DNA of 64,000 nt. Origin: Pleurocapsaceae cyanobacterium CSU_1_1. Lineage in GTDB: Bacteria; Cyanobacteriota; Cyanobacteriia; Cyanobacteriales; Xenococcaceae. The stretch spans positions 1-64,000 of the forward strand of contig JAAUOU010000007.1 of assembly GCA_012034765.1 (NCBI GenBank). Direction: 5' to 3'. Both the position numbers and the translations under genes were made by a program. The notes below the pieces were generated by a model. It saw nothing but the letters and a program-made list of their open reading frames with translations, ran no database searches and was not told the DNA's origin. This document shows, one piece after another, positions 62,885 to 64,000 of this stretch (its first letter is position 1; each line of letters begins with the position of its first letter).

Positions 62885-63451
62885 GTAAAAGTAATAATTT
62901 AGTCTCTGCTTGAGTGGATAAAAATACTAACTTGAGTACTCTCATAGATTAACTACCAATCTCTCATCTAGTAGCCTAACTAAACATTTTATTAATATTT
63001 GGCAGCTATTTAGCAGAGCCAAAATATTGCTATATTGCTAAAAAACTGCGATCGCGTTTTTATTTCATCACTCTTCACCAAGTAGCCGTGATTTGTCTTA
63101 ATTTTTTGTCACAAAATATACTAAAATACCTACTTGATAGCGAAAAGTCATTATTTCTTAAAAGTCATCCTGAATTTTTGGGTCTGTAGATTACAAATTA
63201 ACAAGATATTTAGATAAATACCGAAGCTCTATTTCAGAGCTTATTAAAAATTAATAATTATCAGAGAGATACCGCTCTCTGGTAGACTTTGGACTTGAGA
63301 CATCGCTTCTTGATGAAGTTGTTTGTGGGGGGGAACCCCCAAGACCACACTTCACCGCTTCTTGATGAAGTTGTTCATGGTGGAAACCACCAAGATCACA
63401 CTTCATCGCTTTTAAAAGAAATTTAACAACAAGCAAATAGGGAGGAAAATC
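62885..63451. other. Long leader of the F/SBPase gene
   Basis: This 567-base spacer holds the promoter and leader of the downstream gene. The last 150 bases contain the tandem repeat described next. A minus-strand ORF at 63251-63436 merely translates that repeat and is not counted as a gene. Confidence 0.6.
63301..63407 (+). repeat. Tandem 52/51-bp hairpin repeat upstream of F/SBPase gene
   Basis: Copy 1 spans 63301-63352 and copy 2 63353-63403. Each has an arm GATGAAGT (63312-63319 and 63364-63371), an inner stem TGGGGG/CCCCCA or TGGTGG/CCACCA, and a 3' arm ACTTCACC or ACTTCATC (63349-63356 and 63400-63407). The middle pair of the inner stem is G-C in copy 1 and T-A in copy 2, a compensatory change. 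The 3' arm of copy 1 can instead pair with the 5' arm of copy 2. It ends 44 bases before the start codon. Confidence 0.8.
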
Positions 63452-64000
63452 TTGCTGGAAACAACCCTCGGTTTAGAAATTATTGAGGTAGTAGAACAAG
63501 CTGCCATTGCCTCTGCCAAGTGGATGGGTAAGGGAGAAAAAGATACTGCCGATCAAGTAGCAGTAGAAGCAATGCGTGAGCGCATGAACAAAATTAACAT
63601 GCGTGGTCGGATTGTCATTGGGGAAGGAGAGAGAGATGATGCTCCTATGCTTTATATCGGTGAGGAAGTAGGTATCTGTACTCGTCCTGATGCCAAGAAC
63701 TTCTGTAATCCTGATGAGTTGATTGAGATTGACATTGCGGTCGATCCTTGCGAGGGAACTAACCTGGTTGCTTACGGACAAAATGGTTCGATGGCAGTTT
63801 TAGCAATTGCCGAAAAAGGCGGATTATTTGCTGCACCTGATTTTTACATGAGAAAGCTGGCTGCGCCTCCATTAGCTAGAGGTCATGTAGATATTAATAA
63901 ATCGGCTACAGAAAACCTGAAGATTCTTTCAGACTGCCTCAATCGTTCAATTGAAGATTTAGTGGTAGTGGTGATGGATCGTTCTCGCCATGAGGGTTTG
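63452..64000 (+). CDS. glpX: Fructose-1,6-/sedoheptulose-1,7-bisphosphatase, class II (partial)
   Basis: The open frame runs off the window end after about 183 of an expected 345 residues. It reads [60 protein letters not shown] and [13 protein letters not shown], the blocks of the cyanobacterial bifunctional F/SBPase. That enzyme dephosphorylates two sugar bisphosphates in the Calvin cycle. The start is likely the TTG at 63452, 6 bases after a GGAGG site; the family usually begins MExTLGLEII. Cys residues in [19 protein letters not shown] fit redox or allosteric sites. The repeat leader precedes it. Confidence 0.93.

Follow-up and report, generated by a model that had tools for sequence, protein, structure and literature searches.

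The window, that is the whole stretch of 64,000 nucleotides analysed from Pleurocapsaceae cyanobacterium CSU_1_1, ends within an open reading frame that matches TIGR00330 (glpX, class II fructose-bisphosphatase, here F/SBPase) with an E-value of 3.9e-57. The score, 193.9 bits, lies below the cut-off of 259.3 set for whole proteins; the gene is truncated by the window end. The leader of this gene contains a pair of hairpins (Table 1). As the first-pass annotation had stated, 44 bases separate the last outer-stem arm, ending at 63407, from the start of a Calvin-cycle gene, and the match to glpX agrees with that assignment. Further upstream, the stretch TAGACT is a candidate -10 element; it is present in 22 of the 24 glpX loci compared, in G010 merely as a degenerate version, and not found in G009 and G024, and a simple sigma-70 scan did not detect it at its position in the window. 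With this candidate as the -10 element, the hairpins would fall close to the start of the F/SBPase transcript.

Table 1. Positions of the hairpin pair and of the neighbouring features in the glpX leader of the window
Feature	Position	Strand	Remarks
TAGACT, candidate -10 element, extended form TGnTAGACT	63283..63288	+	putative, from conservation at glpX loci
ATCGC target end	63302..63306	+	insertion point 63306^63307 (C^T), based on empty leaders of relatives and on ATCGC before other copies
Hairpin copy 1, 52 nt	63307..63358	+	inner stem GGGGG/CCCCC, one extra G; partly decayed; R1 47.1 bits
Copy 1 outer stem, 5' arm GATGAAGT	63312..63319	+	
Copy 1 outer stem, 3' arm ACTTCACC	63349..63356	+	one mismatch
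Hairpin copy 2, 51 nt	63359..63409	+	inner stem GGTGG/CCACC; outer stem perfect; R1 64.7 bits
Copy 2 outer stem, 5' arm GATGAAGT	63364..63371	+	
Copy 2 inner hairpin TGGTGG-AAA-CCACCA	63378..63392	+	
Copy 2 outer stem, 3' arm ACTTCATC	63400..63407	+	
glpX (F/SBPase), 5' part	63452..64000	+	TTG start; continues past window end

The pair is a direct (head-to-tail) tandem of the same imperfect hairpin, and the junctions of both copies were fixed from the empty glpX leaders of relatives. The two copies of 51-52 bp, each with an outer and an inner stem, and the G-C to T-A double change between their inner stems, both described from the letters alone in the first-pass annotation, were recovered in our analysis. 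The segment 63301-63412 folds with -42.5 kcal/mol (z -4.2), a stability equalled by none of 200 shuffles; together with a covariation far above that of shuffled alignments, this rules out chance pairing. A covariance model, R1, was built from copies located elsewhere and from copy 2, copy 1 not being among its training rows; applied to the window at E<=10, it matched both copies and no other site. Rfam gave no family at E<=1 between 62600 and 64000, and a known RNA family was rejected on this ground.

Comparison of the glpX leaders from 24 genomes of the genus and family, of which 22 were judged (G009 and G024 not being read), shows the hairpin in three of the 24. The G000 leader carries the tandem, that of G005 one unit into which some 190 nt are nested, and that of G006 a single diverged unit at the same nucleotide position. 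Seventeen leaders are empty, 15 of them read as such and two (G003, G016) by spacing only, and the empty site has the form CATCGC^TTTT or a close variant. Those of G001 (L022) and G017 (L041) contain unrelated short inserts a few bases before the hairpin site, which may make the glpX leader a minor hot spot for insertions. Since G000 and G005 are sisters in the tree and G002, with an empty leader, is the next branch, the insertion shared by G000 and G005 is probably younger than their split from G002. The copy of G006 may stem from another hit at this site, or it may be an old one that was lost in other genomes; the latter case, shared descent with several losses instead of an independent insertion, would count against a mobile hairpin.

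The junctions of copies at other loci define the unit, whose consensus is [T/G]TCTTG-nnn-AG T Y G Y TCATGGGGGAAACCCCCAAGACC R C R CT-n'n'n'-CGC. Of the 99 distinct junction units of the main subfamily (TCTTG...CGC), 76 are 51 nt long (17 codons); related copies from related genomes are included in these 99 junctions, which are thus not independent events. A length of 51 nt, divisible by three, allows the element to add 17 residues to a protein without loss of frame. The clearest junctions are those in ten arrays of tandem heptamers (for example TTTTAGC^TTTTAGC and TTTTGAC^TTTTGAC), where the seven-base period is intact after removal of the unit alone, which measures 51 nt in nine arrays and 52 in one. 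These arrays were scored at 6 or more period matches out of 7, two equivalent registers giving ten each and eleven in union, and the other trimmings tried break the period, except for that of a whole extra period. The main subfamily therefore inserts without target duplication. For the subfamily with a GAAAA stem, its three arrays give a unit of 50 nt by the same period test, a point against the mobile-hairpin explanation. A gene of G003 shows, relative to its homologues in G010 and G013, a single in-frame gap of 51 nt; its flanking GCGAT equally allows a 5-nt duplication, and it is the arrays alone that exclude duplication.

Insertion occurs mostly between a pyrimidine and T: 43 of the 99 junctions are C^T and 42 are T^T. 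This is to be read as a preference, and its looseness counts against the mobile-hairpin explanation. ATCGC stands directly ahead of 11 of the 99 copies, where about 0.17 would be expected from its frequency in the same loci, and a whole HIP1 octamer precedes 7 of these 11. The F/SBPase site, ATCGC^T, belongs to the type seen at HIP1 octamers, and the unit's own 3' end, CATCGC^, resembles this favoured target (ATCGC^, the end of the octamer). Nested copies were also seen: among the nested versions longer than 52 nt, 11 of 14 have a length that is a multiple of three (binomial p 0.0007, overstated since some copies are related). A search for longer versions with the same ends, covering elements up to 400 nt, gave versions of up to about 240 nt that carry further hairpins and, by eye, no gene, and an autonomous partner was rejected on this ground. 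Copying of the outer stem from the target at insertion was likewise discarded as a general rule: heptamer arrays of other sequence contain the same GATGC stem.

The first-pass annotation had suspected similar dispersed repeats in the genome, and the search that it proposed, in this genome and in relatives, supports the suspicion. Besides the window, the genome contains one further copy, with 95% identity across 58 nt, plus three weaker matches at E<1e-4, and the covariance model finds 21 matches at E<=0.01, including the two in the window. With the unit as BLAST query (E<=0.01), 18 of 60 genomes gave a match, the own genome included; with the covariance model (E<=0.01), at least one match was obtained in 68 of 195 genomes of the order, a search whose filters lose weak matches and which counted up to 31 matches per genome. 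A pattern scan of named genomes returned at least 119 stretches, and the 80 titles listed are all cyanobacterial; the genera among the matches listed include Nostoc, Moorena, Okeania, Xenococcus, Pleurocapsa and Crocosphaera (MAG). The pattern used for these named genomes and for the viral scans fixed the core and left the outer stem and the base pair Y1-R1 free, so the invariance of the core in these scans is a matter of selection by the search. A phage collection gave no match at E<=0.01 and three IMG/VR contigs (L218, L219 and L220) carry the core; spread by phages was rejected. The bare stem pattern is no rarer in the own genome than its backward control (2 occurrences versus 1 and 1), a point against a mobile hairpin.

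With respect to genes, 95 copies near or within them show no clear orientation preference, with 28 sense and 23 antisense in leaders, 30 and 25 in trailers, and 5 and 8 inside open reading frames, a single copy being allowed two labels. Among the 111 copies flanked by 1 kb or more on both sides, 15 fall within long open frames, split 7 to 8 between the two orientations; these placement and orientation counts include related copies from related genomes and are not counts of independent events. Some copies are located within TnpB (IS605 OrfB) genes, one at G000:C31:5008-5053 (L277) and one at AP017376.1:103799-103832 on a plasmid of Stanieria sp. NIES-3757, whose flanks are shared by L253 and L255-L257 of G013; such copies were probably carried along by the insertion sequence. 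Another copy, L005, directly precedes a TnpB-like open reading frame. In G013, eleven near-identical larger repeats (L262-L272) have a related hairpin core with the stem-loop TTGGGGATACCCCAA.

The outer stem of the family is highly variable yet complementary. In 84 distinct 46-mers, none of which was dropped, 153 cells are double-changed, whereas 1000 shuffles gave 47.9 on average and never more than 64. This enforced base pairing is in agreement with the first-pass view that structure is under selection. Seven pairs with double changes among columns 4-12 comprise 131 double, 5 one-sided and 42 unpaired cells. An alignment of 39 rows (37 of 42 chosen copies plus two typical ones, the five dropped having for the most part a broken or odd arm) gives 88 double-changed cells versus 23.9 in shuffles, a value reached by 0 of 500. 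The shuffles keep the relatedness of the rows, and sliding the partner fails to reproduce the signal. At the variable pairs as many as four Watson-Crick types occur and G.T intermediates are almost absent, and the conserved irregularities set by the pairs Y1-R1 and Y2-R2 are a bulged T, a CC bulge and an A.A mismatch. Among the mismatches on the element strand (67 distinct 40-mers), 4 are G.T and 18 A.C, or 4 and 12 (p 0.08) when the pair whose partner base was fixed by the search pattern is left out. As G.T is not in excess over A.C, these counts lend no support to a wobble-tolerant RNA on the element strand. An A.C on this strand would read as G.U in an RNA of the complementary strand, at a level that is not significant once that pair is left out (p 0.08), and such an RNA is still conceivable.

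The 131 double against 5 one-sided changes, together with inverted inner hairpins in some copies, lead to the idea that the outer stem is renewed by copying of one arm at each move or stalled fork and not by slow compensatory selection. We consider this quite improbable; if true, the element would spread as a DNA hairpin that folds back and thereby rewrites its stem. The inversions concern L258 and L259 of G013, where the inner hairpin is inverted with TTT replacing AAA, and L311 of G010, where the loop is inverted; they look as if the hairpin had been flipped as DNA.

Our preferred explanation (probability about 0.85) is that the pair results from two insertions, or from a single one followed by a tandem gain, of a tiny non-coding SDR-like mobile hairpin in the glpX leader. 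The dispersed copies, the exact insertions and the empty leaders agree with what the first-pass annotation had kept as a fallback, a mobile hairpin lying here by chance. In the mechanism that we propose, the element would move as a folded single strand, and a host or transposon enzyme would recognise the stem irregularities (bulged T, CC bulge, A.A mismatch). The tandem could have arisen since the 3' end of the first copy recreated the target. In the mRNA, the hairpins would form close to the 5' end, and their greatest effect would be a longer, more stable or slightly occluded leader. A leader structure that is most likely a mobile hairpin warns annotators against calling it a regulatory RNA. 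With a unit of 51 nt, no duplicated target and insertion at ATCGC^T or in heptamers, its junctions also make the movement of tiny elements directly testable.

Movement by DNA strand transfer (HUH-like) and movement via RNA appear about equally likely. Counts of Y1 transposases and reverse transcriptases in these genomes pointed to no mobilising enzyme, which counts against the mobile-hairpin explanation. Y1 domains are found in 176 of 195 genomes, with up to 21 matches counted per genome, and the correlation of these counts with the hairpin counts, both capped, is only weak after size correction (partial correlation 0.20), so a Y1 transposase as the obvious driver was rejected. Reverse transcriptase matches are present in 29 of 30 chosen genomes, hairpin-free ones included; the only genome without one, G100, has 19 hairpin matches and one weak Y1 match, and reverse transcriptase was rejected as the explanation. 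Similarly, G011 combines 21 hairpin matches with one marginal Y1 match (E 6e-4).

These counts also bear on a REP/REPIN-type element moved by a RAYT (REP-associated Y1 transposase), an assignment that we regard as unlikely. A small imperfect hairpin with bulges, insertion without target duplication, the wide presence of Y1 domains and their weak correlation with the hairpins are what such an element would give; however, the ends of the main subfamily lack a GTAG or CGTC tag, the pair in the window is direct and not inverted, six hairpin-rich genomes (at least 10 matches) have two Y1 matches or fewer, and three genomes with hairpins have none.

Among known systems, IS200/IS605 elements insert without target duplication and have irregular hairpins at their ends. 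The window family shares both traits (the former in the ten heptamer arrays, the G003 gene being consistent with it), but it consists of a single hairpin and carries no gene, and its copies inside TnpB genes look like hitch-hiking. The hairpin also resembles the small dispersed repeats (SDR) that Elhai et al. reportedly described in 2008 in Nostoc punctiforme and its relatives. These are said to be hairpins of 21-27 nt with compensatory changes in both arms, located in tandem heptamers, within larger repeats and inside one another, and with HIP1-linked insertion. The hairpin of the window is also cyanobacterial and dispersed, with compensatory changes in its arms; it too occurs in heptamer arrays, in larger repeats and nested in itself, and its insertion is likewise linked to HIP1. 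In contrast, its unit is of 51 nt with an outer stem (a shorter inner core being possible), it is not confined to HIP1, and it occurs in Xenococcaceae and Moorena besides Nostocales. On these features, compared with SDR descriptions and not with SDR sequences, and lacking the GTAG/CGTC tag of REP, it resembles SDR-like elements and may be placed with them. According to PMC4390886, SDR5 inserts between nucleotides 3 and 4 of HIP1, and the SDR work of 2008 is cited in PMC3116915, PMC4390886, PMC6513891 and PMC3733652. Four core strings had no occurrence in the literature searched, a body of text outside which the SDR consensus of 2008 lies.

REPs and REPINs are described, in PMC3116915 and PMC3733652, as short imperfect palindromes, dispersed and in some cases within genes, and to this extent they are similar to our hairpin. 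They differ from it in their terminal GTAG/CGTC tag, the ends being here [T/G]TCTTG and CGC (by eye), and in their organization as inverted doublets, the window having a direct tandem and the family a predominance of single copies (by eye); moreover, no dedicated transposase for the window family emerged from the Y1 domain counts. Rickettsia palindromic elements, as described in PMC10969869, enter open reading frames in frame and measure about 150 bp. Palindromic form and in-frame entry are common to both, whereas the length (51 nt), the sequence and the host are different and most copies of the window family lie outside long open reading frames.

A mobile origin could be combined with a later benefit: the hairpin would have been kept in G000, G005 and G006 since a stable 5'-proximal hairpin slows the decay of the F/SBPase transcript. 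Two lineages have the hairpin at the identical nucleotide, two other genomes have different inserts in the same leader, and copy 2 retains a perfect outer stem along with its compensated inner pair, all of which would suit such retention. However, an identical site is also expected from the ATCGC^T preference, copy 1 is decaying, and G002, a close relative without the hairpin, has the same gene behind a similar leader. Retention for this function is accordingly a tentative proposal with the odds against it, and the effect of the hairpin pair on the F/SBPase mRNA is probably incidental.

The idea of a cis-acting regulatory leader, an attenuator or switch of F/SBPase based on mutually exclusive folds between the copies, is very improbable. 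Attenuators and riboswitches combine two exclusive folds of similar stability with conservation at orthologous genes. The first-pass annotation had proposed pairing of the 3' arm of copy 1 with the 5' arm of copy 2, and this pairing is possible; when the leader is folded from about the likely transcription start to the start codon, however, the separate two-hairpin fold dominates, and the forced cross-copy fold is no real competitor (-46.6 versus -52.0 kcal/mol, 5.4 kcal/mol apart, with an equilibrium pairing probability of about 0.0003). The stability of the hairpins and their place in a probable 5' UTR, 44 nt ahead of the start codon, speak for regulation, as does their presence in 3 of 22 judged leaders; but the hairpin is missing from the other 19 of the 22 (two of these by spacing only), the same element lies at many unrelated sites in either orientation to genes, and the leader matches no Rfam family. 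The low pairing probability and the few occupied leaders led us to reject the attenuator interpretation.

The predicted ribosome-binding site is somewhat more paired when the hairpins are present, the probability of being unpaired for its first five bases ranging from 0.01 to 0.31 with them and from 0.06 to 0.84 without, so a modest effect on glpX translation is still conceivable in these predicted folds. Against a switch, this site is largely paired even in the empty leader. Upstream of the candidate -10 element, the window contains at 63241-63257 the palindrome TTATTAAAAATTAATAA; at the same place upstream of glpX, the relatives have mostly TTATTAAAACTTAATAA, and by eye this looks like an operator.
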